A stretch of 64,000 nucleotides of DNA from Sabellastarte sp. h YS-2021 (Eukaryota > Annelida > Polychaeta > Sabellida > Sabellidae), in the NCBI GenBank assembly GCA_964017235.1, contig OZ024936.1:56099028-56163027 (forward strand), in the 5' to 3' direction. Shown piece by piece: positions 7,071 to 60,327 of the stretch. Under the pieces are notes generated by a model. It ran no database searches, was not told where the DNA came from, and worked only from the letters and a program-made list of their open reading frames with translations. The position numbers and the translations under genes were made by a program. The stretch's first letter is position 1. The number at the start of each line of letters is the position of its first letter.

Positions 7071-7081
7071 CATAGATACTT

Positions 7082-7103
7082 AAGCATCCCTGAAAGGGAG
7101 CTT
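7082..7103. repeat. Terminal hairpin of a repeat element ('aagcatccc...')
   Basis: 'aagcatccctgaaagggagctt' folds as an imperfect inverted repeat, preceded by 'acttt/ctta' AT-rich DNA and followed by 'acttgtttttgcctcagttt'. The same start is seen at 53036-53061 (intact hairpin) and, without the second arm, at about 48168. The C-rich block 'cgtcatcgcagtt' follows here and again near 48390. Confidence 0.6.
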
Positions 7104-23626: not shown

Positions 23627-24366
23627 AAAAACACATAGAAGAAGCAGTAAAACACAGCTATCGAATAATGTATTGCCTTATGTATATATATCTACACATG
23701 GGCATCTCCTATTCTCAAATCACTCCATTGGCTCACAGTTGAATTTTGCTGCATCTTCAAGACCGCCACTTTAGTTTACAAATGTCTTCACAGTAATCAT
23801 CTCTGGTACTTTAGTTATCTTTTGCCTACTTGTTGTAGAAGACATAGAATAAGATACAACCGTCCAGACAAAAGGTTCTTGGAGCTTCCTGAATTCCATC
23901 CATCTGTTTGTGTAACTTGCCCATGAAAGTAATTAATGTTTCCTGATATCATCCTCAACAAACATTGTTATCCATCATTGTCAGTTACTCTATATGTCAT
24001 CACATGTTAAGTCGCATCAATTATAATATACATGTCACTAAAGCTATTAGTGATATAAATGTATGACAAGATAAAAGATTTAATCCTTGTGTGGCATAAA
24101 TCATAGTAATTTTGTTCAGTCGACTGTAGTAATGTCATATAAAGTAGAGGTTGTGCTTTAATGGTTTTATGGTAATTATTTTAACCTAGTTGTTGGTCAA
24201 AATGTTGTTGGCTATGTGTAACGGTGCAGATCATATATTTGTGTTGATTAATGTCAAGGTGGTCTAAAAATGGTTGAACTAATGAATATTCATGATGGAC
24301 TGGCTGGATGATAGGTTGAATAGTTTATGTTAGGTTTATATATGCTGGTAATTTACTGATGTAAAA

Positions 24367-24597
24367 GGGGGCCACGGTGGCAGAGTGGTAACACTCTCGC
24401 CTCCCACCTCAGCGGCCGGGGATAGATCCCCGTCATGGCCGTAAGTGGGAAAGCTGGTAGTTGCTTGCCGTTGGTCGGCAGTTTACAGTACACAACCCTA
24501 GCAAACTCTATGTACTGGTTTCCTCTGCCCTTCCAACTACCCGTCGTGATATGACCTGTACAGTGTTGAAAGCGACGTAAAACCCCAAATAAACAAA
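24367..24597 (+). mobile_element. tRNA-derived SINE (family B) with 13-bp target duplication
   Basis: Target duplication 'tactgatgtaaaa' at 24354-24366 and 24598-24610. Head 'gggggccacggtggcagagt' with a tRNA-like A-box region and a B-box-like 'ggatagatccc' (original probably GGWTCGATCCC). The body 'gttgccgttggtcggcagtt' and end 'gcgacgtaaaaccccaaata' match 44081-44310 on the other strand. Layout resembles bivalve V/Meta-type SINEs. Confidence 0.9.
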
Positions 24598-24901
24598 TAC
24601 TGATGTAAAATCATTCTATTCAGAGACGTGGTGAAGATTTAGGCTGTATTCTTTCGTGTGTCTTTGCTAAGATTTTTAACTGTGGAATGGGAATGAAAGT
24701 GTGAAAAACTTTACAGGCAGGGTGACCCAGATCTACGATTCGTTGTTGTAGTTGGGGTAGTTGTAGTGTGTGACTGTGTAGTATGTTTGGACAAGGTTGT
24801 GCAGTTCTTTTCTCACTTCTCCCATCTTCCATGGTTAGCTTGAGGGTGCCTCGTCACCATATTTTTTAGGGGTTTTTAGTAATTATGAGAATCTTGCCAC
24901 G

Positions 24902-25213
24902 GTGACTAAACAGAAGGCGTTCTGTACGAAGTGTGACGAAAGTCATGAGAAGTCAGTGGGACGGCAGTGTCTGCAAGCTGTGACGACTGGAGACATCATG
25001 GGGGATACCGAGACCTCTTCTGTATCTTCCCTTCCATTGGCTCAACAATGTCTAGACCAAGCTAGTACTCAGAAAATTTTTGACGACAGTCCAGATAAGC
25101 TTGATATAATTTTGAGGCATATTCAAAGACTTCATGATGAACTTAAGGAAGTGAAGAAAGATAGGAAGGAAATTCTAAAAGCTTGTACTTCCAAGCAAAC
25201 ACATAATTCTTAA
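24902..25213 (+). pseudogene. Gag-like N-terminal fragment with CxxC...C motif
   Basis: Begins around TKQKAFCTKCDESHEKSVG, a small cysteine motif (CxxCxxSHxKxxGRxC), followed by an acidic, serine-rich part and a coiled-coil-like C terminus (HIQRLHDELKEVKKDRKEI). The upstream start is unclear since the first codon is GTG. A second gag-like frame follows from about 25278 (DETDGAGKQGVQ...). This cysteine layout recalls Ngaro-type gag proteins; that is a recollection, not a match. Confidence 0.5.
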
Positions 25214-25559
25214 CTTTCCTCACCCCCTCGTCAAGTTTATATACTCCCATCGTAAATCCCGTCCTTTCCCTTGTCCTTTGGCCTCAGATGACGAGACAGA
25301 TGGTGCTGGTAAACAGGGTGTACAACTTCAGCGAGATGCACAGAACGTGGATGACTTGATCCTTCCTTCTATGAGTTTCTTGAGAGATAATGGACAGTTA
25401 TATCATAAGGTGGACAGCAGGATGCAGCAGTGGGATGACCAACAGAGACATGATATTCAAAGTAAAAAACTGAAGTCAGGGTTACATAGGCATCAAGAAA
25501 CACAAGTTCTAGTTAATGCAATATATGGGTATTGGTTCAAATATGGGGTTCCCACTGGC

Positions 25560-25760
25560 AAGGAAAGTTGGTTCAGATCCATTGCGATAACGAGGCTGTG
25601 GTGCACGTTCTTTCCACTGGTCGTAGGCGAGATGACCTTTTGGGTGCATTCACTCACTCCATATGAGCTTATACTGCTAGCAGAGATATACAGTTACAAT
25701 ATTCACATATTGCTGGGGTAAAAAAAACATCTTGGCGGATGCACTTTCGCGTTGCTTCAC
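25560..25760 (+). pseudogene. RNase H remnant of a YR retrotransposon
   Basis: In one frame: DNEAVVHVLSTGRRRDD, LLGAFTHSI, then DIQLQYSHIAGVKN, and after a slip in the A7 run near 25722 LADALSR. The pattern D-N-x-A-V, then H-I-x-G-x-x-N-x-x-A-D-x-L-S-R is the C-terminal part of the RNase H domain that precedes the tyrosine recombinase in DIRS/Ngaro elements. A stop interrupts it near 25668. Confidence 0.75.
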
Positions 25761-26536
25761 TCGGGGGGTTACTGACATACATATTACTGAACTTCAGGAT
25801 AAGCGTTGGCATCAAATTCATGGTCATTATTTTCATCCAAATTTTTCTATATAATTTCAGGCTCACCTTTGCCTACAATACTTTTATAATCTGCATCTCA
25901 GAGAGTTCTTCATGGCGATAGGCGTTCAACTGTCTTCCAATATTGCAGTCAATTTTGTTTGTTTCTGGCTTTGGCTACATATCTTCAGATTTCATACATT
26001 TCCAGTCCATCATTTTTCTTGATTTTTGTGGTATTTTTGCATTTACAAGGTGTCAAAATTACAACAATTAGAAATTCTATATCGGCAGTAAAATATTACT
26101 CTTTGATGTATTCTTTTTCATTGCAAGCATTTCACAGTAGGCGTCTTCATATGCTGATACGTTCTATTTCCATCAATGCTACATATACTCTGCGTATTAA
26201 ACGAGTTTTCAGTCTTGACATACTAGTGCAGCTGGTTCATTTGTGGGATACTCTGCCTAATGGCATCATGCATAAAGCCATCTGTTTGGTGGTGTTTTTT
26301 ACGGTTATCATCATTGGTTCCTTGTTAAAAATTCCATGATTTTCATTTGCTAAGAGCCCATTTTCATTGGCATTTGTTGGGCCTTTCTCTTACCCTTCTA
26401 TGAACTAAAACTCATCAGCATTATGATCAGATGCATTCTGTCGTCTTGCCACATATTTATAATTCTTTTTTATGTCCTGTAACTGCAGTATCTGAGATGT
26501 TTAAAGGAATACCAGCTTTGCCTTCTCAGGTGGCCT

Positions 26537-26830
26537 TTGGTTATTGGGAGACGGGTTCCTGTGGTAGCGTATAAAGTGTGGCAAATATTGGCACAGTGTA
26601 CAAGGCGTCTTCGTCTTTATCCATCACAGTTTACATTCCATGCTTTCCGCCGTAGTATCGCTACTTATTGTTTTAATCAGAACGTGTCTTTCGAGGACAT
26701 TAAAATTCATGGTACATGTAGTTGGACAAGTGATTCTATCTACACATACTTGCAAACCACCTCTAAGGTTTCTCAATGCTTTCAATCTACATTACAAATA
26801 TTTCTTAAACTTCTACATATTTGGGCTTAG
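26537..26830 (+). pseudogene. Tyrosine recombinase C-terminal fragment
   Basis: The frame contains RRLRLYPSQFTFHAFRRSIA (HxxR box: HAFR), FNQNVSFEDIKIHGT, then W.SDSIYTYL with the candidate nucleophile tyrosine. This is the catalytic C-terminal half of a tyrosine recombinase. Upstream (25760-26530) the same domain is scattered over several frames with stops, so the gene is dead. Confidence 0.75.
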
Positions 26831-27066
26831 GGACAGCCCCATATATTTCTTCACCATTGGTAAATATTTCATTTTGTGTGGTTCTTATTAATAATACTAA
26901 AATTTTAATCTTGTTCAATGGTAGAAATAAATGGGCCAAAATATATCATTATCTTTCTCTTCAGCAGATTGGTGGATTATGTATGAATGGTAGATTATAA
27001 ATGTGCATCTTTGACCTTGATATGACCTTCATATCTTTACTCTGGGATCTGTGGTTTAGTGTAGGA

Positions 27067-30561: not shown

Positions 30562-31520
30562 CTAATGCAATAATACAAATAAGATAAGGTGGTATTCTTC
30601 AGTGCCAAACATCCCCAGTGACACAGCTCTATACATGCAGTTACCATCTCCAGCAACCCGCTTGGGCTGGAAGTCCGCCAGCACAATGGGATTGTAGCAT
30701 CTCAATATAGCCTCTGCAGTTGAGTCATCAGAGGCTGACTGATCTATATCCTTCAGTGGTGGCATTGTTATCCTGTAGGTATTCAGTAATAGGTCTTCGT
30801 TCTTAGCAGCCACTAAAATGGCCTCTCTAGGCCTTGCCTTCATTCTGAAAAATACATGGAAACATTATTAGCTGTAATTACAGATGGGTATTACAGATCT
30901 ACCTTGATTTAGACAGAATTACAGACAGACAAACAGACAAAAGTAGAGAAAACATAACCTCCCTGGTGTGGGTATTACAGATCTACCTTGATTTAGTCAG
31001 AATTACAGACAGACAGACAAACACACAGAAAACATAACTTCAATAATAAAACCTGTGTACTCACAGACAAACAGACAAAAGTAGAGAAAACATAACTTCA
31101 ATAATAAAACATGTGTACTCACCTTTTCAGAGCATCTCTAAAATTATATTTCCCATCAGTAAATGCACACCTAATACAGAGGAAATGCATGTTCTCTTCA
31201 GACCAAGTGTTGAGCAGAGCACTGTCAAGCCTCAAACATTTGAAATGTGTCCAAAGTTTACAATCACTGCATTCAATAGCATCATTGTTGCATCTTAAGT
31301 TACAAAGAGTACAAGGATATGAACTAGAACTTCCATTTTTAAATGGCAAACTGTCTCTAAATCTTTTAGGCTTTAAACCTGCATTAAATCTCTTTGCACG
31401 CTTCATTATATCACTTTCCCCATAAATATCTCTTTGAAAAAATGTGACATTTATCATACACTCTAGAGATCTATTTGACTTATGATTACCCCAACATTTA
31501 CTGCCTATATTTATACACAT
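30562..31520 (-). pseudogene. PHD finger plus OTU protease gene fragment, two exons
   Basis: Minus strand. Exon 1 (31520-31123) ends in a PHD-type zinc finger: CTLC, CSDC, H..C, CIRC spacing (YPCTLCNLRCNNDAIECSDC, then WTHFKCL and FLCIRC). It stops at a consensus donor, AAAG then gtgagt. Exon 2 starts at 30844 after an acceptor 'tgtatttttcag'; the codon split AG|A restores the frame across a 278-bp intron. Exon 2 carries the OTU catalytic start, VAGDGNCMYRAVS (Asp and Cys) and GTEEYH. OTU proteins are cysteine deubiquitinases; PHD fingers bind histone tails. The OTU domain stops about 15 residues after the catalytic Cys region, so the His part is missing and the gene is truncated. Whether it is transposon-encoded or a host gene family piece cannot be told. 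Confidence 0.65.
30870..31110. repeat. Short direct repeats inside the PHD-OTU intron
   Basis: 'attacagatctaccttgatt' occurs twice and 'gacaaacagacaaaagtaga' with 'gaaaacataacttcaataat' recur, the last copy including a second 'gtgtactcac', a duplicate of the splice donor on the minus strand. Confidence 0.7.
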
Positions 31521-32060
31521 GGCAGAAGACTTATTGCAATTTGAATATTATAATAGATTCTTTTGATAATATTATGAAGAGAATGGAAAACATAACATTA
31601 TTGTCATCATTTAATTGGGATTTGTAATACCCACTACCTGTGGACATCAACAGATTAGCCTAGATTGCAATGAAGTGCAATTAGATTTAGAAGCCATGTC
31701 ACATTTTTGGAGGTGTGGAATGAGATACCACAGTTTAACCTTGATTGCAATGAGATGCAATTATATTGAGAAGCCATGTCACAATTTTGGAGGTGTGAAA
31801 TGAGGTAACCCTTTGATCATATTTCAAAGGAAATCAGAGAATACTTGTTTGCATAGAATCACTGTGATTACACTGTTTAAACAAACATTACCCAGTCTTC
31901 CATTGAAATACAATTGGATTAATGATAATATCACTAAAAATGTGTGAAATGAGGTAACCCTTTGATCATATGTCAAAGGAAAACAGAGAATATCATTAGA
32001 AATACTTGTTAATAATAATAATTAGTCAAGTAGGAATATGGAGAAATAATGAAAATATTT

Positions 32061-40748: not shown

Positions 40749-43700
40749 TCATAATATTTTTTTCATTTGAAACCAAATTTTATTAAATTTCTCCTCATTC
40801 AGTTCAAGTTTTGCTGCCAATTTGTGTTCGTTATACATAATTTGTATGTTATTTAATACATCTTTAATCCGGAGTTCACACGACTTCCTGGAAGCATTGT
40901 ATATATATATTTTTGTTACTAATATTATTTGATTTATAGCATTTGAATTGTTATTGCAAACAGTATATCCCAATAAAATATCAGTTGGGGATAAATTTAC
41001 CAAAAAGCCAGTGGAATTTAATATTTTTGTCTGCAATTCGTTCCAGAAATTTTTCACATTTGGGCAATCATAGAATAAGTGATGCAATGATTCTACTTCT
41101 GAGAAACATGACAAACATAGTGGAGAATTTCAAATTCTAATTTTGTGTAGAAGTTTCTGTGTGCCCAGTATTCGGTATAAAATTCTATATTGGAACCACT
41201 TATGAAACGGGTCTTTATAATTTTTCCAGCAAATTCTGAAAAAATTTTGCCAGGTGTTATTATTGAAGGTCAAATCGAGTTCATGGTGCCATTTATTTTT
41301 AAAAGTCAGATCCAAATTTGTTTTATTTAAAATATTATAAATCCCTTTCATTCCATATTGGTTAGTGAATATAAATGCAAGTTGTGTAGGCATACAAGGA
41401 CGAGTCAATTTTGTAAAGTCGCCCTTTATCTCTTGGTATTTTAATAATATTCCAATCAAAATTTTAATTTTGTGGTAATGAAGAAAGTTTATTTTTAGGG
41501 CATATTTTTGCTCCAATTCATGTTGACTTAAAATGCTTCCATTACTTCCCAGGATATCAGCAACATACGTTATGCCATGTTTGTACCAATTTAGAAAGAA
41601 TAATGGAGTGTCAGAAATATCTGGATTATGCCATAAAACAGAGGCCAATATTTCACTTCTGTTGCTTATAGTTTTCTTTTGTATAAGCATTTGCCAGCAT
41701 AAAAATACTTCCTGCCAAAACTGATTATGTGTGTTTTTAATTAAGTTCTTTAACCAACTCAATCCAAAATTGCAAAAGCAAGAAAGATTAGAAATTGAAT
41801 GCTCAACAATATTACATATCTGAGTGGACTTTTTCTTAAGGATCCTGTCCATCCACATAAGTTTTATAGCACTTATATGGTTCTTTATATTTACCATTCA
41901 CAAACCAAAATTGTTGTAATCTTGGGTAACACACAAACGCTTTATTTTATCAGGCTTACCATTCCAAAGATAATTAAAAAGTAGCTCATTTAACTTTTTG
42001 ATAAACTTGGTGATGGAATAGAAGCAAAAAGATAATTAAATTGAGATAGAATAAAGGTTTTAATAATTGTTATCCGTCCTAAAGGTGTTAAAGATCTACG
42101 TTTCCAAATATCAATAATTTTTTTTGATTTTTCGAGGTATAGAGAATAATTTAAGGCAGGAATATCTTCAAGATCAACTGAAAACAATACTCCAAGCAAA
42201 TTAAATCGGTCAGTACCCCATTCTAGTCTATAAGATACAGGCAGCTTTTCAGAACTATGTTTCTTGTCCCCTATCCATATAACTTTTGTTTTTGTGGTAT
42301 TCATTTTCAAGCCTGAATAGGTTCCAAATATTTCTATTGTATTTAATGCAGCCTCAAGAGATCTTTCTGAACCATCTAAAATTAAAGTTGTATCGTCTGC
42401 AAACTGTAAGAGCTTAATCTCTTCTGTTCCTATTTGTAAACCTTTGGCATCAATATTTTGATAAATCCAATAATACAACACTTGACCACAAAGAATATAA
42501 AGATATGCAGCTATTGGGTCACCTTGTTTACACCCGCACTCTATTTGTTAAAAATCAGACTTTACTCCCGCTTGCATGACTGAAGCACAAATATCAGTAT
42601 TTAGAAGTTTAACCCAGCGTATGAATTCTGGTCCAAAGCCAAAATATTCCAAAACATTATACAAAAATTTCCAAGATATAGAGTCAAAAGCTTTTTCAAA
42701 ATTTATCAACATCAATAACCCCTTGATTCTTTTCCTTTCTGTATATTCCATCAGATCGTATATTAAACGCAAAGATTCTCCAATATAGCGACCCGGTACA
42801 AAGCCAGTCTGAGATTTAGACACCAAAATATCCAAGACTTTTTTTAATCTATTGGCTATTACTGAGGATATAAGTTTATATAAAACGGACAATAAAGAAA
42901 TGGGACACCAATTCTTTAGATATTGCCGAGGTTTATCACCTTTAGGAATACAATTAATTAGAGACTGTCTCCATGTTGTTGAGAGTTTCCCCTTACTATA
43001 GCAATAGTTTGCAACTCTTAGAATCAAAAATTTTAATTTACTCCAAACATCTTGAAAAAAGGAGTTTTATTATTTTTCATATTTTTTAAAGCAGTGTTTA
43101 ACTCTTCTAACAATATTGGACCTTCGAGAGATTGAGCATGAGTATATGACAATTTTTGTACAAAATTTTCATTAAGAATTCGTTCAAGGTCAATATCTTC
43201 AATTAAACTATCTCTGCTACGGAAGAGTTCACTGTAGTAATCTTTTATTTTATTCAAAATGTCTTTTTGTTCAGTAACAGATTCACCATTTTCCATAGAA
43301 ATTTTTCGAATAGTTTTATCCAGATAATTTTTACGCTCCAAGTTACAAAAATATTGAGTAGGCTTTTCTCCAGATCGAAGGGTCTGAGCTCTTGATCGAA
43401 TCACTTGGCCGTTAAGCTTTTTTTCACGAATTGTTAATAATTCAACTTTTAGCTTCTCTAATGTGTTGGATATTTCAGCTTCATTCTCTTTTAAGTTTCT
43501 AATTCCGAAATTCTTTTAATCAAATTCTGTTCACGAATATTTGTAGATTTTTTTAGGGAACTAGCAAATTTTATTGTTTTTGCTCTTATTCTATACAGTA
43601 GCAATTCGAGAAACAAGTCTACATCAATAGTGAAAGTTAGGTCAGTATCATTAGTCATTTCTATATAGTCAAAACTGTAGACTGGTACTATGAATTCCTG

Positions 43701-44767
43701 GCGTGTCTTTTGTATTGTGTCATTAATTAGGTCTATATATTCAACATTTTTAAGAAGCTCACAGTTTAAGTTCCAGATTCCCTTTCCTTGGAGAAATTTG
43801 CTTATTTCTATATTTATTTCATGCAATGAATGGTCTGTTCTGTATCCAGGTAAAATTTGACACTTTGATATAAAATCAAGGAAACAATTTGAAACATTGA
43901 AATAATCTAATCGTGCTTGCTTAATAGGATTTTTTCTTCTCCAAGTATATCGCCGTGTTTCTGGATGAAAATGTCTAAAACTGTCAACCAAGTTATGGAG
44001 CCTTATTACATCAAGAAAGTAAAACCTGGATTTAGGGTTATTGATGTTGATATAATTATAACAATCCTTATTTGGGTCGATTTTGTTTATTTGGGGTTTT
44101 ACGTCGCTTTCAACACTGTACAGGTCATATCACGACGGGTAGTTTGAAGGGCAGAGGAAACCAGTACGTATAGTTCGCTAGGGTTCTGTACTGTAAACTG
44201 CCGACCAACGGCAAGCAACTACCAGCTTTCCCACTTACGGCCATGACGGGGATCGAACCCCGGCCGCAGAGGTGGGAGGCGAGAGTGTTACCACTCTGCC
44301 ACCGTAGCCCCCTTATTTGGGTCGAGTACTAAGTTAAAATCACCACAGATCACTAAATGGTCCAAGTTATTTTCAGTAATCAGGTCATCAATCGAGCGAA
44401 AGAAACTAGGAGTATCATTATTCGGGGCATATATGTTAATCAGTCGGAACGTTCTAGAGTTTATATTTAAATCAGCATATACAAGGTTACCTTCATTGTC
44501 CGACTTTGTATCAATAATTTGATAGTTAAAATGATTTCTTAATATAATAACTACTCCGCGAGAGTTTGTTCTAGTTCCGCTTAACAGACATTTTGATTCC
44601 ATCATTAGACTTAAATCATTTTCATCTTGTTTGGTCAAGTGAGTATCTTGTAGACAGAGTATATTTGGATCGAGTCTAGAAAGATAATTCCAGACATCCA
44701 GCCTCTTTGTCTTGTCTCTTAAGCCCTGACAGTTTACAGACACTATTTTTATTTGTTCACCTATCAT
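40749..44767 (-). pseudogene. LINE ORF2: APE endonuclease, reverse transcriptase, C-terminal Cys region (broken)
   Basis: Starts at MIGEQIKIVSVNCQGLRDK. The endonuclease shows NILCLQDTHL, VVIILRN, LINIYAPN and VICGDFN, then after a SINE (44081-44310) YTWRR and LDYFNVS, i.e. the APE-type motifs. The linker has SRAQTLRSGEKPTQYF. RT blocks follow: QSLINCIPKGDKPRQYLKNW, QTGFVPGRYIGES, LMLINFEKAFDS (first Asp changed to Asn), CGCKQGDPIAAYL and LLQFADDTTLIL (catalytic DD present). The KSPGxDG block near 43055 is partly deleted. The C terminus ends with a Cys/His cluster ESLHHLFYDCPNVK..W. Stops or frameshifts lie near 43030, 42548, 41990, 41900 and 41120. ORF2 cuts target DNA and primes reverse transcription from the nick. 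Confidence 0.85.
44081..44310 (-). mobile_element. SINE (family B) inserted in LINE ORF2, 15-bp target duplication
   Basis: The perfect duplication 'ccttatttgggtcga' lies at 44066-44080 and 44311-44325. On the minus strand it starts GGGGGCTACGGTGGCAGAGT and has an intact B-box GGTTCGATCCC, ending 'gcgacgtaaaaccccaaata' plus 'aacaaaa'. It is the same family as 24367-24597 and better preserved. It splits the endonuclease domain right after VICGDFNLVLDPNK and supplies the false C terminus ATVAEW. Confidence 0.97.
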
Positions 44768-44769
44768 AA

Positions 44770-45890
44770 TTAGATCTAAAATCAACTAGAAAAAGCTTCT
44801 GAACCACAAACTGGCAGGCAATAGTAGTTTTACTCAATAAAAGTAATGATCCTTTGTTTTGAATAGTAAAAGGAAAATAAATATCGGGGTTAATGTATCC
44901 ATGTTTTAGGTCATAAATTAGTATACGTAAACAGCATTTCAAAAAATAAAACATTTTAAAAAATAATCTTACACTAGTTGTGAACATATGTACAAAAGGA
45001 AAGTGGCATTCATGAGAAACCATAATAAGCAATATAATGCTCACATCATATATATTTTTTGTGCCAGATATTTACAGAGCTCAATGACGACAGATGGATT
45101 TTAGGCACTGACTGATAAATAATCAATGTTTCGGAGTATTTAAAACCTTTTCTGTCTCCAAATAAATGTGCACTATTCAAATAATAATTGGATCATCATT
45201 AACTATAATTTTTTTTTGGCCCTCAATAAAGGTGCACTGCTCAAAAATAATTGTCACAGTATATCTGAATTATTTGAAAAAATTAAAAGACATATAATCG
45301 ATCAACAGTAACTAAACAGTGTGAAAGCTTTTCCTTATTTAGTCCCAAAATATAATACAAGGAGATGTGATAACACATTGTATAAAGCAATTTAATATTT
45401 TCCAAAAACAATTAAATTTAGTTAAAACACTTCAGCAACACAATGATGATGGATGATTATGACATCAATAAAAATTGAATTCAGAGAATTGTTGATCTCT
45501 TTTAAGACAACTCAGTCAAAGTAAGGTTAATAATTTACATGAAGTCTGTGTAATGTGTCACTTGGAGAGATACTGCAAAGGTGCAAGTGCAATCGGTAAT
45601 CTAAATATCATATTCAATGATAGAAGAAAGGTACACCTATAATCCCCGACAATATTAGACTAGTATTCAGATGTAATGTAATTAGATAGATCAGTCTCCA
45701 GTTTTGAAATACTTATTGCATAGTTTTGGTTCAGGGTCCATTAGACATTGTACACTCAAATATCAAAATTAATGTTTTCAACAAATTTATTGCAAACTGT
45801 TTCAAGTCCAGGACTATCCTTTCACTCAAGTATCAAAATTATGTTTTCAACAAATTTATTGCCAACTATTTCAAGTCCAGCACTATCCTT
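44770..45890 (-). other. Inter-ORF region of the LINE
   Basis: No coding signal I trust. It contains a two-copy 65-bp direct repeat (45763-45828 and 45829-45893, 'gttttcaacaaatttattgc') and a diverged repeat with 'gtgcact' and 'caaa.aataattg' at 45165 and 45228. Confidence 0.6.
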
Positions 45891-47699
45891 TCACACTTGT
45901 AATGAATCACGGACATCACAGAGGATCTGTCCCAATAGATTTTTGCCCTTCTACTGCGACTGTTCATCTAAGTGTGGGTGATGAAGAGAGAGGCCACATG
46001 AAAAGAGTCTGTCTCTTGCACTTGCCTCAATGATGTTGCCAGTTGTTTGTTTAAGCCTTTGTACCAGCTCGCGATTCTGTTGGAATTTTAGAAGACAGGC
46101 TTTATGCATAGTGTGCTTAGCCTTTGGTTCCCAGAGTTCAGGATCAAACTCCTTGATACGGTACGAGAGAGCCTTGGCATGGTTTGGGCGTTTTGCATTT
46201 AATATTGCTGAAGCAGTTGACATGTCGTTGAAAAAGGTGGCCTTTTTTGCTTGATAATAGTGTTCGACAGTTTTATAAGTCACACCTTGCTCCTCAAAAG
46301 AACTTTCATAAAAGTTGCTGAGAAAACTAGCTTTTCCAAAAAAAAGCAATCCCCTTACCGTCTTTTAAACGTCGTTCCGCTGGATTAGCATCTTTCAATC
46401 CATGGGGAAGTAAGTGAAGTGACTCCACTGTGAATTTCTGATCATTGATCACTAACACATCTCTAACTAACAGATCTTGTCACCTGTGGACATTGTTTAG
46501 CGGCTCTCAAATAGGGTTGGAGTTTTCTAACTTTTTCTTGAGTGGCAGGTGAGAAATCTTCAGTGAGTATGAATTTAGTACCTTTCAGGTTGAACCTTAG
46601 ACCGAGTTCTGTCCCGTCGCCAATTGCTGTTGATATGTTTGACCGTACACAATGGCGAGGGACAAAGCTCACATGTACCTGTTTTCTGTGTAAATCTCGA
46701 ACCGTGGGAAATTATTGTATTCACTTTAAAAAGTTCTTGATATGTCTATTATAGCTGTATCCAGTTCACAATACATATGTTATTAAATTAAACTGCTTTT
46801 AGAAGCCAGGAATTTCTTTTGTAGATAACTATGTAATGTTGAAGGTTTGTTTACATTTTGAAAATAGGTTAAAATATATACATTGCCAGTTTGATTGGCA
46901 TTAAATATAAGTGAACGGCACATATACATCCCTTAAAGAAACCAAATAACACTTTATACTTGTGGTAATATGTGTACAAATATGCCGTTCAAGATTTACA
47001 CAGAAAACAGGTACATGTGAGCTCTGTCCCTCGCCATTGTGTCCATCAGTATATCAATAGCAATTGGCGACGGGACAGAAACTTCCCTCTGTCCATTGCA
47101 CTTTGGAACCTAACAATAATGTCCCTTGGGTTTTTTGCAGCCTTTGCAGTAAGGTGAGGCGGCTTCCCTAACCTATGTACATTATTGATCACAACACTTT
47201 CAGGGTCTGAGAGCATAAGGTTATCTTTAAAGAACTTAACAACAAGATCATGCACATTTTCATTCGGACCAGTTTCAGCAATCCCTTTTATTATCAAATT
47301 ATCCTTCCTGGAATAATCCTCAAGTTTATTGACCTGATCCTGAAGCTCTCCATTTTTCTGTTCAGCTTCCCTGAGCCTTCACTGAAGAGTTTCTATTTCT
47401 TTTGAGTTTTCTTCACATTTTACTTTACACTCTTCAAGCCCCATGGCCTGACTTCGAAGATAATCCAAATCTTTGAGCAAAAAGTCAAAAACACATGTAA
47501 ACCATGGTGGGGCTTGCTTTTTAATACCTTCAATAGCCCTTTCCCTTTGCAATTTTTCAGTATGGACATCCATTTCCGTTAAAACAGTTTCTGTCTCACT
47601 AAGTTCCAATAGTTTAGTTGGTGTTGTTTGAAGATTCAATTTCTTGGTTATTAGTATTTCTGGTTCAGAATCAGAGCTATGATTTCGCTTGTAGGCCAT
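45891..47699 (-). pseudogene. LINE ORF1 with C-terminal NADAR (YbiA-like) domain, broken
   Basis: Starts at MAYKRNHSSDSEPEIL. Residues about 60-140 are helical/coiled-coil-like; one TGA at about 47379 interrupts. The same frame then gives EDYSRKDNLIIKGIAET and VVINNVHRLGK, an RRM-like L1 ORF1 domain, to about 47090. After a foldback segment comes the C-terminal domain (ILTEDFSPATQEKVRKLQPY). After frameshifts at about 46485 and in the T8 run at about 46340, a NADAR domain follows: FFGKASFLSNFYESSF, YKTVEHYYQAKKATFF, RIKEFDPELW, MHKACLLKFQQN, GNIIEASARDRLFSCGL. A TAG (probably former TGG) at 45951 is followed in frame by KGKNLLGQILCDVRDSL, the usual NADAR end. NADAR enzymes act on ADP-ribose derivatives, including removal of ADP-ribose from guanine in DNA in bacterial DarT1 systems. 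All four parts are on one strand and within 1.8 kb. Confidence 0.8.
46606..47082. repeat. Foldback: ~92-bp inverted arms with ~295-bp loop inside ORF1
   Basis: Left arm 46606-46697 ('gttctgtcccgtcgccaatt' to 'ttttctgtgtaaatct') is the reverse complement of the right arm 46992-47082 with few mismatches. The loop is AT-rich and unrelated to ORF1. The structure interrupts ORF1 between the RRM-like and C-terminal domains. One arm is presumably the original coding segment. Confidence 0.9.
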
Positions 47700-48167: not shown

Positions 48168-48660
48168 AAGCGTCCCCCTCAGTTTCCTCACCGCCGCCAC
48201 CGCCGCCGCATTATGGTCTCCCTTGAATATCTCCCTTATTATAAGAAGGTTTCAAGCCATATTTGGCAGTTATATACCTTAGCCGTGGGAAAATTTTTCT
48301 GCATGCTTAAATTTGACCTTTGACCTTTATGAAAGTCACATGATCAAAAACAATTTTTTGAAGTACACCCCCCCCCCCCCCCCCCCCGTCATCGCAGTTC
48401 AGGAAAAACTACTTGCTACACAGCCTTATAATTTGACGCACCTGTTCATACTATCGAAAACGCGAGCTGATTAGATTTTGGGAGCAATCCCTTGAAAAAT
48501 GTCTCATTTATGAGTGATTTTCTGACACCTTCCAATCTGAAAGCCTTAAATTTAGGTCAACCCCCCTATTATCTTCTTAAGTATTGCATTTGGAGCCATA
48601 AAATGTACTGGGAGGTAATAGGAAACCATATGTGGAGAATCTAAATAACCGGTCAGTTTT
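48168..48660 (+). repeat. Proximal part of the 157-bp satellite element
   Basis: Starts 'aagcgtccccctcagtttcc', like 7082 but with the hairpin arm lost, then diverged 'tatctcccttattataagaa' and 'aaatgtactgggaggtaata' blocks. A C22 run at about 48366-48387 precedes 'gtcatcgcagtt', shared with about 7157. Confidence 0.7.
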
Positions 48661-50665
48661 ACCCCACGGCCCCCCCTTATGGGTCAAACTGGGGTCATAA
48701 AATAGCTGATTTTGAGTTTTTGCCTTATATCTCCTTTATTGTTGCTTTTATAGCTTCAGAATGTATTAAGAGGTATTGCGAAAGCATATGTGGAGAGTCT
48801 AAATAGCCGGTCAGTTTTACCCCCCGACCCCCCCTTATGGGCCAAACTGGGGTCATAAATAGCTGCTTTGGAGTTTTTGCCTTATATCTCCTTTATCGTT
48901 GCTTTTATAGCTTCAGAATGTATTAAGAGGCATTGGGAAAGCATATGTGGAGAGTCTACATAGCCGGTCAGTTTTACCCCCGACCCCCCCTTATGGGCCA
49001 AACTGGGGTAATAAAATAGCTGCTTTGGAGTTTTTGCCTTATATCTCCTTTATCGTTGCTTTTATAGCTTCAGAATGTATTAAGAGGTATTGGGAAAGCA
49101 TATGTGGAGAGTCTAAATAGCCGGTCAGTTTTACCTCCCTACCCCCCCTTATGGGCCAAACTGGGGTCATAAATAGCTGCTTTGGAGTTTTTGCCTTATA
49201 TCTCCTTTATTGTTGCTTTTATAGCTTCAGAATGTATTAAGAGGTATTGGGAAAGCATATGTGGAGAATCTAAATAGCCGGTCAGTTTTATCCCCCGACC
49301 CCCCCTTATGGGTCAAACAGGGGTCATAAAATAGTTGCTTTGGAGTTTTGCCTTATATCTCCTTTATTGTTACTTTTATACCTTCAGAATGTATTAAGAG
49401 GTATTAGGAAAGCATATGGGGAGAGTCTAAATAGCCGGTCAGTTTTACCCCCCGGCCCCCCTTATGGGTCAAACTGGGATAATAAAATAGCTGATTTTGA
49501 GTTTTTGCCTTATATCTCCTTTATTGTTGCTTTTATACCTTCAGAATGTATTAAGAGGTATTGGGAAAGCATATGTGGAGAGTCTAAATAGCCGGTCAGT
49601 TTTACCCCCCGACCCCCCCTTATGGGCCAAACTGGGGTCATAAATAGCTGCTTTGGAGTTTTTGCCTTATATCTCCTTTATCGTTGCTTTTATAGCTTCA
49701 GAATGTATTAAGAGGCATTGGGAAAGCATATGTGGAGAGTCTACATAGCTGGTCAGTTTTACCCCCGACCCCCCCTTATGGGCCAAACTGGGGTAATAAA
49801 ATAGCTGCTTTGGAGTTTTTGCCTTATATCTCCTTTATTGTTGCTTTTATACCTTCAGAATGTATTAAGAGGTATTGGGAAAGCATATGTGGAGAGTCTA
49901 AATAGCCGGTCAGTTTTACCCCCCGACCCCCCCTTATGGGCCAAACTGGGGTCATAAATAGCTGCTTTGGAGTTTTTGCCTTATATCTCCTTTATCGTTG
50001 CTTTTATAGCTTCAGAATGTATTAAGAGGTATTGGGAAAGCATATGTGGAGAGTCTACATAGCCAGTCAGTTTTACCCCCGACCCCCCCTTATGGGCCAA
50101 ACTGGGGTCATAAAATAGCTGCTTTGGAGTTTTTGCCTTATATCTCCTTTATCGTTGCTTTTATAGCTTCAGAATGTATTAAGAGGTATTGGGAAAGCAT
50201 ATGTGGAGAGTCTAAATAGCCGGTCAGTTTTACCTCCTGACCCCCCCTTATGGGCCAAACTGGGGTCATAAATAGCTGCTTTGGAGTTTTTGCCTTATAT
50301 CTCCTTTATCGTTGCTTTTATAGCTTCAGAATGTATTAAGAGGTATTAGGAAAGCATATGTGGAGAATCTAAATAGCCAGTCAGTTTTATCCCCCGACCC
50401 CCTCTTATGGGTCAAACTGGGGTCATAAAATAGTTGCTTTGGAGTTTTGCCTTATATCTCCTTTATTGTTGCTTTTATACCTTCAGAATGTATTAAGAGG
50501 TATTAGGAAAGCATATGTGGAGAGTCTAAATAGCCGGTCAGTTTTACCCCCCGACCCCCCCTATGGGCCAAACTGGGGTCAGAAATAGCTGCTTTGGAGT
50601 TTTTGCCTTATATCTCCTGTATCGTTGCTTTTATAGCTTCAGAATGTATTAAGAGGTATTGGCAT
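48661..50665 (+). repeat. 157-bp satellite, ~13 copies
   Basis: 'ttgccttatatctcc' occurs at 48720, 48877, 49034, 49191 and onwards, every 157 bp. Units carry 'cagaatgtattaagaggtat', 'gagagtctaaatagccggtc' and 'ccccccttatgggccaaact'. Copies are very similar, with small alternations ('tagcttc' or 'taccttc'). Ends abruptly at 'gaggtattgg' followed by unrelated 'catacggcgcagctttg'. Confidence 0.95.
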
Positions 50666-50880: not shown

Positions 50881-52080
50881 CCATGAGGTATAGAAGTACT
50901 GTACCAGTACAAACTTCAGGATACTTTCAGAGCACTGTCAGTTATATAAAGGTCCAAACAATGTTTAAATGGAGAAATAATGTTTAAAAGAAAGATAATG
51001 CGTATAGAGATGAAGTATTAAAACAAGATAATTCAATAACAAGATGACAGCATTAATCAGTAAACTAAAATTCAACACTCTTTATCTACATCTGCATGGC
51101 CTAATTATGGTTTAGATGGTTTGAATATTACCATGCATACAGAAGTGGTAATGCATTTAATGAATGCTTATTGTGGTGTTGGAGCAAAATCTGTGGCTCA
51201 CTTGATGAAATTCTATCTCTTACAATGGGAAGTTATGAAAGTAAAATTCTTACTAAATTCTAATATGACTTTTGCTTAATCTGCATCAAAAGACAGACCC
51301 AAAGGTCCAAGAAGATTTTAAAGGTCAAGGTCACTACGACAAGGTAAAAGGTCAAATTAAGGTCACACCTTGATAATATACACCTATAGACCCTAACCAA
51401 TGTCCCTACCAAGTATCAACTTCCTACACCTTACAGTTTCCGAGATATAGCCCTGACAAGATTTTATAGGTCAAGGTCACTATGGCAAGGTCAAAGGTCA
51501 AATCAAGGTCACACCATGATGCTGCACACCTACACCCCCTAACCAATGTCTCTACCAAATATCAACTTCCTACACCTTACAGTTTCCAAGATATAGCCCG
51601 GACAAGATTTTATAGGTCAAGGTCACTACGGCAAGGTCAAAGGTCAAATCAAGGTCAGATCATGACGTTGCACACCTACACCCCCTAACAAATGTCCCTA
51701 CCAAATATCAACTTCCACACCTTACGGTTTCCAAGATATAGCCCGGACAAGATTTTATAGGTCAAGGTCACTATGGCAAGGTCAAAGGTCAAATCAAGGT
51801 CACACCAAGGCGTTGCACACCTATACCCCCTAACCAATGTTCCTACCAAATATCAACTTCCTACACCTTACGGTTTCTGAGATATAGCCCGGACAAGAGT
51901 TTATAGGTCAAGGTCACTACGGCAAGGTCAAAGGTCAAATCAAGGTCAGAACATGACGTTGCACACCTACACCCCCTAACCAATGTCTCTACCAAGTATC
52001 AACTTCCTACACCTTACGGTTTCTGAGATACAGCCCGGACAAACTATTTCCCGCCGCCCGCCCGCCCGCCCATCTGGACA
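50870..52080 (+). repeat. Dispersed satellite-bearing element, copy 3, about five 146-bp units
   Basis: 50870-51290 is the non-repeated 5' part shared with 7200-7640. 51300-52060 holds tandem 146-bp units with 'gcacacctacaccccctaac', 'aagtatcaacttcctacacc', 'gagatatagcccggacaaga' and 'tataggtcaaggtcact'. It ends in a GC-rich 'cccgccgcccgcccgcccgc' tract leading to the hairpin at 52098. This is the most complete copy and shows the whole architecture. Confidence 0.93.
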
Positions 52081-55440: not shown

Positions 55441-57430
55441 ATGTCTTCCCACCAAGTAAGCACAAAAGCAAGATCATCTAAATGCCGTCACTTCTGCTAT
55501 CCATTCGATACCCGCAATTACTGCCCTACCTGTAGGGAATCTGGCAAGGGAGACAACCCCTGTGTCACATAGCAGTCTCCTTGCAATATCTGTGATAGTT
55601 TCACCGAGGAACAACAGATTAAAATAAAACAAAGACATCAGTATATTAGGAAGCAGAAGTCGTTGGATCCAAATACTAGCAAAGATGACCTTGACCTGTT
55701 GGATGACGATGGTTATGCTTTCTCTGGCTCTCAAGCAGACTTTGAGGGTGCTGCTGAAAATTTGTTTTCTTCTCATCCACGTCCCAACCCTTACGTTTTG
55801 AATCTTTGTCATTAAAAACTCCACAAACTGTCCTCCTACCCCAGGTACTGCATTGCAGAATAAAATACAGAGTAGGCTAGAAAAATCCCTGGGTAGTACA
55901 TTTAACATCCAACTTAAGCAAGAAATGAGGGTTTCCAGACGGCTATGCTGGAGGCAATGAAGTCTCTCAGAGACGAAATGCTTTCTTTCAAAAAAGCCTC
56001 CGAGTCAGATGTAGTGCAGACATCCGACTCTGCTAAAGCTAGACCTGGACCAAGTAATCAGCCCAACCCTATTGTGACTCGGACTTCTATTCCAAGGGCA
56101 TCCGACCACTCAGATGTTCAACCTATGGACCTCCACTTCCAAGTCTTCTCAGAATGTCCAGTCCGAGCATGCTTCCAAGCAATCGGATATTAAATCCGAC
56201 CACTCGGAACATCATTCCCACTCGGAATGCCCTAAACAGGCGTGTCCTAAAGCAAAAAAGCAATCTGACAAAAGGAAGCACAAGACACGGGCAAAATATT
56301 ATTCTCAGTCATCTTTTTCAGAGGAAGATTAGTCCTCTGCCTCAACTAGAAAGCCTACTAAACCTCAACATAAGGTTCCTCAGGAACTTCAACATCAGGA
56401 CAGCACAGATCTCTAGATCTCCCTGACCCCAGGGAAACTTTGCCTATGTCCTCTACCACTGTGCCAGGCCTAGACGATGAAAAAGGCCAACAGGAGCTAA
56501 GGCCAAGAGGCCCTTCTGCTATGCTCCCTTTAAACCCAATTCTCAAAGATGCTTTTGAGAAATTTGAACAAGATTTCTTTGCCTCCAATTTACCTGAGGG
56601 TAAATATATCAAACCTTCAACAGCCAAGTACTACAAGGTGGGACAACCTTGTTTTGAAGATAAGCTTCAAGAACTTAATACAGATTTTGCAAAAATCTGT
56701 ATCTCTCCAAAGCCTTCTGGGGCCCCTGTGTGCAAGGTTCCCCTAGAAGTTCTTAAGGAACTTGAACATCAATCTAGACAGAATCTTTCTACCATCAATT
56801 TCACAGCTACTTTCGTTAGGACTGCCTCCTCATGTAACACTGTTATGGAGAAGTGCCTACATAGTGCCAAGGCTACCTTCAAAAGGGTCAGAAATCAAAT
56901 TCTAAAGGGTGCCGACCCCGAAAGAGCTGCTAGATGTGGTTATGAAAACGTGATTATTTTGAACTGATGAATAAGAGGATTATTAGTCAACAGAGAGCCT
57001 GCCTTAGCAAATCTGTAGCCCACATACTCCAGAGGGAACTATATACCATGGGCAACACTGGCCTTCTGAGAAGAGAGGCTGAAATGACCCTTCTTCAACC
57101 ACACCTAGGGGACTCGAGACGCCAGGAACTGAGGAACTTGCCTTTTTGGCCTACTCCTCTTTTCAAGTCTCAACTAGTGAAGGATGGAGAGGACTTCCTC
57201 CTTTAAAAAGGCACCCCTAAAGACTCTCAGGGTGTTGGACCCTATCAAATCAAGCCCTTTTGTGGTCCCCACCACAACAAGAAAAGAGGCTCCTACAAGA
57301 AACGCCCCTATGGGGGCAATTCCTCACAAAGCAGTAACCAGTCGTTTTTATCAGGTAGGGGGAAACCAAACTTCAGAGGCTCCAGGGGTCGAGAGCATGG
57401 AAACCCCTCCTCCCAATGACTCCTTTTAAG
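55441..57430 (+). pseudogene. DIRS gag-type ORF, broken
   Basis: Starts MSSHQVSTKARSSKCRHFC. An N-terminal Cys-rich part (CPTCRESGKGDNPCV, then a TAG, then CNICDSFTEEQ) is followed by a serine-rich low-complexity part (55940-56330) and a well-conserved globular part in the frame 56440-56967 (LPLNPILKDAFEKFEQDFFA to ATFKRVRNQILKG). A Gly/Arg-rich tail continues in other frames to about 57430. At least three frameshifts and a stop. Shares its Cys-rich start with the fragment at 1397. Confidence 0.8.
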
Positions 57431-57479
57431 CCTCCCTCAGTCCACCAGTACTAGGTCGCCTCTGTTCTTTCAGAAGAGA

Positions 57480-58230
57480 CTTGCTCACAAACAAATGTTC
57501 AGACAACGTGTTAAACATTATCACCAATGGTTACGTTCTTCCATTCATCTCAAAACCAAATTTAGTCAGAGCCCCTCTGATTCAGTCAAGTTACAAGGCC
57601 CTTCAAAAAGAACTAGCTCTGACCTCTTGTATCCAGTCTCTTCTGTCAAAGAATGCAATAGAAAGGGTGGAAAATGTAAAATCTCTTGGGTTTTACAGTT
57701 GTAACCAAGCCTCACCAAAGGTGGAGGCCAGTAATAGACCTAAGCAGGCTCAACTCTTTCGTACTTGTAGAAAGGTTCAAAAAGGAAACACCAGAGTCCA
57801 TCAAGACATCTCTGATTCCAGGGGAATGGGTGTCGTCAATAGACTTAGCAGGCGCCTACCTTCACATTCCCATCCACCCAAACTCAAGGAAGTACCTGGA
57901 AGGTTTTGCCACGGGTCGCAGGTGTTTCAGTTCACTTCCCTTCCCTTCAGACTAGCCACGGCCCCTCAGGTCTTTACAATGCTTGTAAAAGAGGTGAAGC
58001 TGATGGCCCTGTCAAGGGGAATCAGACTTCACCAATATCTGAATGACTGGCTGATCGTGGGCTACGAATACCATCTAGATTCAGCCCTTGTAAAACCCAC
58101 TCAAGAGAGATGGTTCAAACTTCAGGATTTGATCTTACGACTCAAGTCAAAACATGTTTTGACTGCAAGATGTTTGATGTCGTTAATTGGGTTGCTTGCC
58201 TCAACAGAGAAAATGGACGCCTTCACATGA
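57480..58230 (+). pseudogene. DIRS reverse transcriptase, frameshifted
   Basis: Frame 57686-57955 gives VVTKPHQRWRPVIDLSRLNS, then ESIKTSLIPGEWVSSIDLAG and AYLHIPIHP (RT blocks 2-3, catalytic Asp of SIDL). A slip near 57925 moves to the frame 57481-58230 with FQFTSLPFRLATAPQVFT and YLNDWLI. The catalytic box normally YLDD reads YLND (58036-58047), so a catalytic Asp is lost in this copy. The RT copies the DIRS RNA. Confidence 0.85.
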
Positions 58231-59120
58231 GGCCCTTTCAGTTTCACCTCAAGGAGCACTGGAGATTTCCTCAGTCGTTGGACACCCTCCTTCCTTGGAC
58301 AGAAACTATTTCAGCACACCTAGACTGGTGGCAAAATCCCACAAACATGATGAAAGGCTCGGACCTTCATCCCAAAGACCACAGTATCCAACTTTTCACA
58401 GATGCCTCAAACGAAGGCTGGGGCGCTCACTTAGAGCAAACCTCTGCAAAAAGTCTGTGGTCAGACAGGGAAAAAAGGCTACACATAAATGTTCTAGAGC
58501 TGAAGGCGGTTTCTCTGGCCCTTCAAAGGTTCAAGGTTCAGTGTCACAGACAACTCAACAGTGGTAGCCTACATAAACAAACAAGGTGGAACCCACTCGG
58601 CGGAGATGTGCGCTCTCTGAGCTCTGTGGAAGATCATGACCTGGTGCTATCGTTACCAGATAACACTCAAAGCCAGACAAGCCAGGGTGTCTGAATGTGA
58701 TGACCGACCTGCTGTCCAGGTCGAACCAAGTTCAGTCAACAGAATGGTCACTGCATCTGCAGGTGTTCAAACAGATCTGTCTCAAGTGGTTGACTCCTCA
58801 GATAGATCTATTTGCCACTCGCCTGAACCACAAAGTTCCACTGTACGTTTCTCCAGTCCCAGACCAAAATGCTTGGGACATAGATGCTCTGAACATAAAC
58901 TGGTCAGGTCTCACCGCTTATGCTTACCCTCCCACAGCTCTCCTTCATAGGGTGATCCAAAAAGTCAGGCAATCCAATTGCCTGATCATCATAATAGCCC
59001 CAGGCTGGCCAGGGATGCCCTGGTTTTGGGACCTAGTGCAGCTCTCAACAGAGATCCCTCTTCAACTTCCAGTGTCAAGAACTCTTCTCAAACAGTCCCA
59101 CAATTATGTGTTCCACAGCA
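58231..59120 (+). pseudogene. DIRS RNase H and following conserved domain
   Basis: RNase H: SIQLFTDASNEGWGAHLEQT, then INVLELKAVSLALQRF, and after a frameshift near 58545 TDNSTVVAYINKQGGTHS (Asp and Glu positions kept). The next frame (58697-59314) shows DLLSRSNQVQSTEWSL, TPQIDLFATRLNHKVPLYVS and PPTALLHRVIQKVR, a block always found between RNase H and the recombinase in DIRS elements. It removes the RNA template. Confidence 0.85.
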
Positions 59121-60327
59121 ATCCCCAGCATCTCAACCTCCACGCCTGGTGTCTAGGAGTGGCCAGCTCCAAGAACAAGGCTTCTCTGTGGAAGTGGCAG
59201 AGAGAATTGCTGCCCCTCAGAGATTATCAACAAGGACCATCTACCAGTCAAAGTGGGCCTTATTTGAGAGATGGTGCAGCGAAAATTCGGTGGATTTCTC
59301 CACTCCCTCTATAAAGCAAGTCTCAGACTTCTTTATGTACCTGTACCAAGATCTAAACAGGCGCCCTTCGACCATTGATGGTTATAGGACGGCCATTGTT
59401 GACACTCTTGGTCCATCGGGGCTCCATATCTCTCAGAGTTCAGACCTTAACAGGTTGCTCTCCAGTTTTCACAGGGATCGTCCAAAAAGTTCCAGGAATC
59501 TTCCTAAGTGGAACCTTTTTGTTGTTCTCAATGAGCTCACAAAAGCACCCTTTGAGCCTATGACACACAGACCTCAAACATCTTACTCTAAAAACTGCTT
59601 TATTTGGCCTCCGGCAAGCACCGCAGCGAAATCCATGCCTGGGTTGCAAACAAAGTATCTAATCTAGGCCAATGGGAAAAGGTTGCCTTGTTCCCCTCTT
59701 CAGATTTCATAGCCAAAAACAAGCAATAGCAAGAGAAGGTTCTGAAAGTGTGTCTCCGGTGACTATTCCTGCTCTAACTACCATTGTTGATAGACAATTC
59801 AAGGAAGACAGGACCTTATGTTCGGTACGGGCCCTGAGGTACTATTTGGATCGAACCAAAGTCCTAAGAGGGTCTCGATCCCTTCTTTTCATCTCCTTTA
59901 AGAAAGGACATACCTCAGACCCGCTACACTCTCTTCATCGCTAAAACAAACTATCCTACTTTGTTTTAAACAAGCAGACCAACAAGTCTTGGACCTGGTC
60001 TAAGTCAAAGTGCATGACATTAGGGCCTTTGTGGCCTCTAAGGCCTTTTATGGTGGGGTATCGGTGGACCAAATCATGCAACCGTGTCACTGGAAAGCTC
60101 AAAACACATTTACAAATTTTTACCTAAAAGACCTTACTTGGTCAGACAATGACGACAATATGTATCTGGGACCAGTAGTAGCGGCACAACAAGTCCTAGA
60201 CCCTTTCCCTCAGCATGCTCATCTTCGGGAAGAAAAGAAGGGGCGGGGGCACACCCGCTGCAGCCAAGTCTTCTTGAGTCTATCCCAGGGTCTGGGTACT
60301 GGTTACCACTCAAGATGTTTACGGTAA
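59121..60327 (+). pseudogene. DIRS tyrosine recombinase, broken
   Basis: The N-terminal SAM-like core binding part reads RLSTRTIYQSKWALFERWCS and SIKQVSDFFMYLYQDL..RPSTIDGYRTAI in the frame 58978-59667. After frameshifts near 59570 and 59670 the catalytic part follows: SVRALRYYLDRTKVLRGSRS, LLFISFKK, then HDIRAFVASKAFYGG (HxxR at 60013-60024), QIMQPCHWKAQNTFTNFYLK (Trp and the nucleophile Tyr region). It integrates circular DIRS DNA without target duplication. Confidence 0.85.

Follow-up and report, generated by a model that had tools for sequence, protein, structure and literature searches.

A NADAR domain in ORF1 of L1-type LINEs of the annelid Sabellastarte sp. h YS-2021 and its proposed role as an ADP-ribose eraser

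Why does the ORF1-type protein of a retrotransposon carry a domain from a family of ADP-ribose hydrolases, and is the arrangement an accident of one copy or a heritable feature? The question is raised by a 64,000-nucleotide stretch of the genome of the annelid Sabellastarte sp. h YS-2021 (assembly GCA_964017235.1, contig OZ024936.1, positions 56,099,028 to 56,163,027), referred to here as the window. On its minus strand, from 47699 to 45891, open reading frame 1 (ORF1) of a long interspersed nuclear element (LINE) of L1 type is followed by a NADAR domain, and both lie upstream of an L1-type ORF2. Hydrolysis of guanine-ADP-ribose is reported for NADAR/YbiA proteins of bacteria and phages and for an oomycete NADAR (PMC11543638, PMC11125620). 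Our reading is that the window holds a decayed L1-type LINE with an ORF1-NADAR fusion that has been inherited and selected, and that the domain may act as an ADP-ribose eraser on LINE RNA and complementary DNA (cDNA). We give this reading as a whole a probability of about 0.4.

The domain belongs to the NADAR superfamily (PF08719), YbiA branch, by family match, fold and a glutamate at the position of E125. The window segment 45951-46364 (minus strand) matched the Pfam profile over residues 11-129 with an E-value of 6.7e-29 (101.7 bits; cut-off 35.1), which rejects a chance resemblance. It also matched the oomycete NADAR in PDB entry 8bau (E 4.9e-14) and YbiA in entry 2b3w (E 2.6e-4). An AlphaFold2 model of the window domain had 8bau as its best fold match (E 9.2e-5, TM 0.62) and 2b3w as its second (E 3.1e-3), and all other structural matches had E-values of 2.8 or more; the model has a mean pLDDT of 72.8, is unreliable at residues 1-11 and 109-137, and was built from a 10-row alignment in which nine rows are viral NADARs. 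These nine came from a NADAR search of viral contigs, which gave 11 loci that are 34-43% identical over the best segment. The PF08719 profile also matched six and then eight proteins of other copies, deep branches included (E 1.5e-26 to 7.2e-44).

In this genome, numerous copies from many families carry ORF1 and NADAR as a single natural reading frame. The searched assembly comprises 1,785,957,881 bases in 647 contigs. The best 150 of 1623 NADAR candidates were scored, and all 150 matched. The first 20 loci (L020-L039) include the two closest kin of the window element, L020 and L021, and 18 loci picked mostly for long frames. An open frame of 434-472 amino acids ending in NADAR is present in 18 of the 20; the kin loci have open stretches of 237 and 259 amino acids. 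At least 200 amino acids of ORF1 and at least 110 of NADAR share one open frame in 41 of the 53 loci L020-L072, which were chosen largely for long frames. The initial annotation had asked whether ORF1 reads through into NADAR in intact copies, and it does. A separate NADAR frame between ORF1 and ORF2 was considered and rejected because intact copies hold NADAR in one frame with ORF1.

A second search of the genome used the ORF1 core of L036 without its NADAR (289 amino acids) and gave 136 matches from the best 135 of 1381 candidates. A NADAR match on the same strand lies within 6 kb downstream in 110 of these matches, and within 350 bp in 106. Thirteen of the 26 core matches with no listed NADAR were fetched, and 12 of them have NADAR directly downstream, several with only part of the domain or with a broken frame; the exception, L052, is interrupted. 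Apart from L052, no ORF1 of this type lacking NADAR was found among the matches listed and examined. Copies without NADAR had been named by the initial annotation as the mark of a one-off insertion, and these counts go against such an event. Conversely, 107 of the 150 NADAR matches have an ORF1-core match among those listed and 43 have none; L020 and L021 fall among the 43, yet they contain ORF1 sequence.

A reverse transcriptase (RT) search, with the best 150 of 25,620 candidates scored, provided seven sister ORF2 loci that were followed upstream. Three of them, with 74% RT identity to L036, have ORF1-NADAR upstream: L073 and L076, which form one family, and L075, which belongs to the family of L049, a locus already among the 53. 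Neither the ORF1 core nor NADAR was found in the 4.7 kb upstream of L074, L077, L078 and L079 (RT identity 74, 67, 69, and 72%, respectively), which are perhaps truncated, rearranged or longer-spacered and decide nothing.

In 27 representatives below 90% identity, NADAR and ORF1-core distances are correlated (Mantel r 0.887, reached by 0 of 2000 permutations). In each of the 351 pairs the NADAR distance is the smaller, averaging 0.540 against 0.661 for the core. The two trees have 16 of 24 splits in common, and there are no conflicts among splits with support of at least 0.9. Three independent pairs with synonymous divergence (dS) of 0.25-0.56 are informative on selection. The ratio of nonsynonymous to synonymous divergence (dN/dS) of their NADAR domains is 0.18 (L025/L027), 0.09 (L065/L066) and 0.09 (L033/L071), and the same pairs have core ratios of 0.26, 0.15, and 0.20; the comparison across copies proposed in the initial annotation thus points to purifying selection. 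Other pairs are less informative. The very close pair L059/L060 has a NADAR dN/dS of 0.49 on 9 changes, which is not significant, and near-identical copies (dS up to 0.022) have values of 0 to 1.5, where defined, on at most 7 changes, which says nothing. Pairs between two families (dS 1.3-1.5) have NADAR ratios of 0.25-0.29, and the deep pair L034/L049 has 0.63 (p 0.04), both near saturation. Most between-family ratios could not be computed, with NADAR dS saturated in 126 of the 153 pairs among the first 18 rows. Together, co-inheritance and dN/dS show that NADAR was present before the families split, has been inherited with the rest of ORF1 since then, and is kept by purifying selection.

Near-identical copies indicate that NADAR travels with the rest of the element. 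Loci L031, L035, and L038 (98.8-99.6% identical) have the same start point and, judged by eye, different flanks, and therefore the element moves as a unit. L036 and L037 are more than 99.7% identical and have a common start, and L036 has a poly-A run at its end. In L037 (1-6832), the 5' start is preceded by part of the 3' region of the same element in inverted orientation, and because of this the pair is weaker evidence of mobility. A target-site duplication of L036 was not found by a simple test.

The element is an L1-type LINE by its ORF1 (coiled coil, RNA recognition motif (RRM) and C-terminal domain) and by its ORF2 (endonuclease of the apurinic/apyrimidinic type and RT). ORF2 of L036 matches human L1 ORF2p with an E-value of 2.8e-83; the best R2-named entry reaches 5.2e-19. 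Human L1 ORF1p (2ykp) is matched with an E-value of 1.2e-10 by a profile built from nine ORF1 cores of other copies. The terms "RRM-like" and "L1-like" used in the initial annotation therefore hold for the related copies. The likeness to human LINE-1 covers the coiled coil, the RRM and the start of the C-terminal domain in ORF1p, as well as the endonuclease and RT in ORF2p. To our knowledge, human ORF1p has no NADAR domain. A search of the genome with PF02994 (Transposase_22) gave no match, but the controls gave no match either, so this negative carries no weight. No relative turned up when viral and prokaryote contigs were searched with the ORF1 core. Placement in the Tx1 subclade is putative, the label following the initial annotation and PMC12477816.

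Spacing between the two reading frames is another difference from the human element. Human L1 has a spacer of tens of bases between ORF1 and ORF2, whereas the NADAR-bearing LINEs have 0.9-4.7 kb from the ORF1-NADAR stop to the next same-strand endonuclease match (17 of the 20 loci L020-L039 have one). The endonuclease match in L022, L033, and L039 is short or distant and may be another element's. Within a family the spacer hardly varies in length (899 bp; 1703-1706 bp; 3217-3225 bp). Repeats often lie inside it. The window spacer (44770-45890) is about 1.1 kb and begins with two copies of a 69-bp tandem repeat (45753-45894); L020 and L021 contain corresponding repeat blocks. NADAR is thus upstream of ORF2, as the initial annotation had it, but not directly so, and gaps of this order are common in related loci.

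The window element is a decayed copy with two in-frame stops, a 484-bp insertion, frame breaks and an insertion in ORF2 that resembles a short interspersed nuclear element (SINE). Three-frame translation places the ORF1 methionine at 47699 and the terminal stop of the NADAR frame at 45891-45893 (minus strand), and therefore the range 45891-47699, for which ORF1 followed by NADAR on one strand had been claimed, is exact. The NADAR frame does resume after one stop (45951-45953), as had been stated, and it runs to 45891. The damage had been understated, for ORF1 also contains a stop at 47379-47381, the insertion and the frame breaks. Breaks lie both before and after the ORF1-NADAR linker, so the ORF1-NADAR pieces are spread over three frames.

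The pieces can be followed in order along the minus strand. The N-terminal part of ORF1 and the start of the coiled coil (47382-47699) come from the three-frame translation and look, on visual inspection, like the N-terminal region of intact ORF1s. The remaining coiled coil and the RRM-like domain (47082-47378) come from translation, and the ORF1-core search of the same genome matches here (C14:56146106-56146567). ORF1 is then interrupted by the insertion (46598-47081), which has inverted ends of about 95 bp. The inverted repeats and its absence from the closest copies mark it as a later event; in both of these copies, L020 and L021, 12 bp separate the match to window position 46597 from that to 47082. 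No target duplication was seen by eye, and the rest of the window and the compared loci contain no further match to it. That this palindromic stretch is part of the element was rejected, as L020 and L021 are without it. The ORF1 C-terminal domain follows in a frame of its own that ends in a stop (46466-46597), as translated, with nearly the same sequence in L020 and L021. The end of this domain and the linker to NADAR (46339-46479) are in a second frame and are continuous with NADAR in L020, L021 and 18 other aligned loci. NADAR is in a third frame (45951-46345), supported by a Pfam match at 45978-46334, by 8bau and by fold. Its last segment after the in-frame stop (45891-45950), found by translation, is continuous in L020 and L021. 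These two loci are the closest copies (93-97% identical over aligned blocks longer than 400 bp) and carry NADAR at the same place.

ORF2 is on the same strand and is also broken. Its start and the first part of the endonuclease domain are at 44313-44767 (Exo_endo_phos, E 4.1e-9). The SINE-like insertion (44079-44312) is a later event, since L021 is uninterrupted there, with an overlap of about 11 bp. The rest of ORF2 (40749-44078) is in several frames and contains the RT at 41990-43066 (RVT_1, E 1.6e-15 and 1.2e-11) and an end resembling zf-RVT (E 0.0029, below cut-off). The SINE-like element has a second window copy at 24365-24597, which is 96% identical to that at 44079-44312 and has a tRNA-like end by eye; a further copy is in L020 near 6870-7099.

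Other mobile element remnants and repeats are found elsewhere in the window. Weak matches to an OTU protease and a PHD finger, in neighbouring frames and below Pfam cut-offs, are at 30562-31547 on the minus strand and are perhaps a transposon remnant. On the plus strand, 24839-26891 contains a weak tyrosine-recombinase match (26483-26830), and 55918-60327 contains a weak RNase H match (58047-58694). Both are below cut-off and in broken frames, and the two regions are perhaps DIRS- or Crypton-like remnants, names given by eye. A 157-bp tandem repeat (13 copies) occupies 48612-50662, and a 146-bp repeat (5 copies) occupies 51312-52042.

NADAR domains have been described in retrotransposons before. 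ORF1 proteins of several Tx1 LINE families of the oyster Crassostrea gigas, known from Repbase entries, are reported to contain what appears to be a YbiA-family NADAR (PMC12477816, Genome Biol. 2025). The initial annotation took the fusion for an undescribed retroelement feature; because of this report, it is not new in kind. Both are L1-type LINEs with a YbiA-family NADAR in ORF1, compared here by description only, and the available part of the report leaves aside the age of the oyster elements, selection on them and their catalytic residues. The same paper describes Gypsy elements of Ectocarpus that also carry a YbiA-family NADAR, for which its authors suggest possible horizontal gain; matches outside Ectocarpus were almost all bacterial (PMC12477816). 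It is the only report of NADAR in a retrotransposon that we found, as far as its available text goes, in a search thin on subscription papers. New here are the single ORF1-NADAR frame of intact copies, the presence of NADAR in nearly every examined ORF1 of this type, its shared descent with ORF1, dN/dS and a mixed active site. Invertebrate RNA-virus polyproteins also bear NADAR and, like the LINEs, are selfish RNA-templated animal elements, including viruses of annelids and bivalves, although their carriers are viruses (PMC9503650). The LINE NADARs resemble DarT1-NADAR antitoxins and the oomycete protein 8bau in fold, and most rows agree with them at the E43, K50 and E125 positions; unlike the DarT1 partners, which have Asp at the E125 position, the LINE NADARs have Glu and are fused to ORF1. 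No transferase family such as DarT was among the Pfam matches of 10 window-element frames and nine proteins of other copies.

Protection from nucleic-acid ADP-ribosylation is our best guess for the function of the domain. ORF1p would coat the LINE RNA and deliver its C-terminal NADAR to both this RNA and the newly made cDNA. There the domain would remove ADP-ribose from guanine, or from another base or end, where the modification would otherwise stall reverse transcription or flag the element. In families without the lysine at K50, NADAR may have become a binding module. The active site can be compared with the residues reported for NADAR proteins, namely the mechanistic residues E43, K50 and E125 and the neighbours or ligands K75, R79, Y84, D86, W89, R93, D130 and W133 (PMC11543638). 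According to the same source, the E125 position is Glu in the YbiA branch, Asp in DarT1 partners and His in phage. In 41 aligned rows, near-identical copies included, the equivalents of E43, E125 and W89 are each present in all 41, K75 in 39 and K50 in 36. D130 is kept in 36, with four Glu and one gap, and Y84 is Tyr in eight rows and Phe in 20. The alignment of catalytic residues suggested in the initial annotation thus gave both glutamates throughout, but also substitutions at other positions.

These substitutions weigh against an eraser function. The equivalent of W133, which binds pyrophosphate, is Trp in six rows and Phe in 35; the Trp rows (L043, L046, L049, L068, L069, and L070, the last a near-copy of L069) are deep tree branches, and because of this Phe looks derived. 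D86 is Asp in none of the rows and Glu in 26, R79 is kept in two and R93 in one. K50, the equivalent of which is essential in the E. coli C7 NADAR, is replaced in open frames by Leu (L049/L075), Gln (L058, L061/L062, L073/L076) and Ile (L055); L054 and L056, siblings of L055, keep Lys. As judged from the alignment, the loss of K50 in intact frames genuinely counts against one hydrolase function for all families. Guanine-N2 ADP-ribosylation of DNA has been reported in six edible clams (PMC11209040), but this precedent might not carry over to the annelid host. A search of the genome for a Scabin-like transferase (PF22596) gave no match, but its controls gave no match either, so this result, too, carries no weight.

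The chief role of NADAR could instead be binding, either of ADP-ribose on proteins or on nicked-target DNA ends or of RNA, which would help ORF1p find or hold its substrate, with hydrolysis dispensable. The changed residues fit this: several open frames, among them those of a family with many equal-score ORF2 matches, have another residue in place of K50, the equivalents of W133, R79, D86, and R93 are mostly changed, and the domain sits on an RNA-binding protein of the ORF1p type. A pure binder would need neither catalytic glutamate, yet both are invariant, and K50 and K75 are kept in most rows; we regard this explanation as possible but doubtful. NADAR might also act on small molecules or RNA ends (ADP-ribose derivatives, NAD caps, RNA repair products) and help process the LINE RNA. 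A part for NADAR in processing RNA intermediates is proposed in PMC12477816, as a general suggestion of the Ectocarpus authors by analogy with RNA viruses, and an association with RNA repair was predicted in PMC9503650. The activity reported for several NADARs is on guanine-ADP-ribose in DNA (PMC11125620, PMC11543638), which speaks against this role, and we consider it unlikely.

Taken alone, the broken window copy could pass for a chance arrangement or for a single LINE copy into which a host NADAR gene had inserted once. The same order in dozens of copies and the matching trees of the 27 representatives make this vanishingly improbable, and one-off insertion of a host gene was rejected, the fusion being genome-wide and co-inherited. 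To return to the eraser, a more complete history can be proposed. An old animal L1-type LINE lineage would have captured an ADP-ribose hydrolase once and kept it through the split into dozens of families as an intrinsic eraser that counters guanine ADP-ribosylation of its RNA or cDNA by the host, through an activity like that of clam CARP-1, and some families would later have turned to binding. We consider this history as a whole improbable.

If NADAR is an active eraser in these LINEs, nucleic-acid ADP-ribosylation would be an animal defence against retrotransposons, and LINEs would carry a counter-defence. This would also give animal NADARs, whose physiological role is described as unclear in PMC11125620, a concrete biological setting. 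Whether or not NADAR acts as an eraser, a brief remark in the literature becomes an old, selected and widespread LINE feature of one genome.
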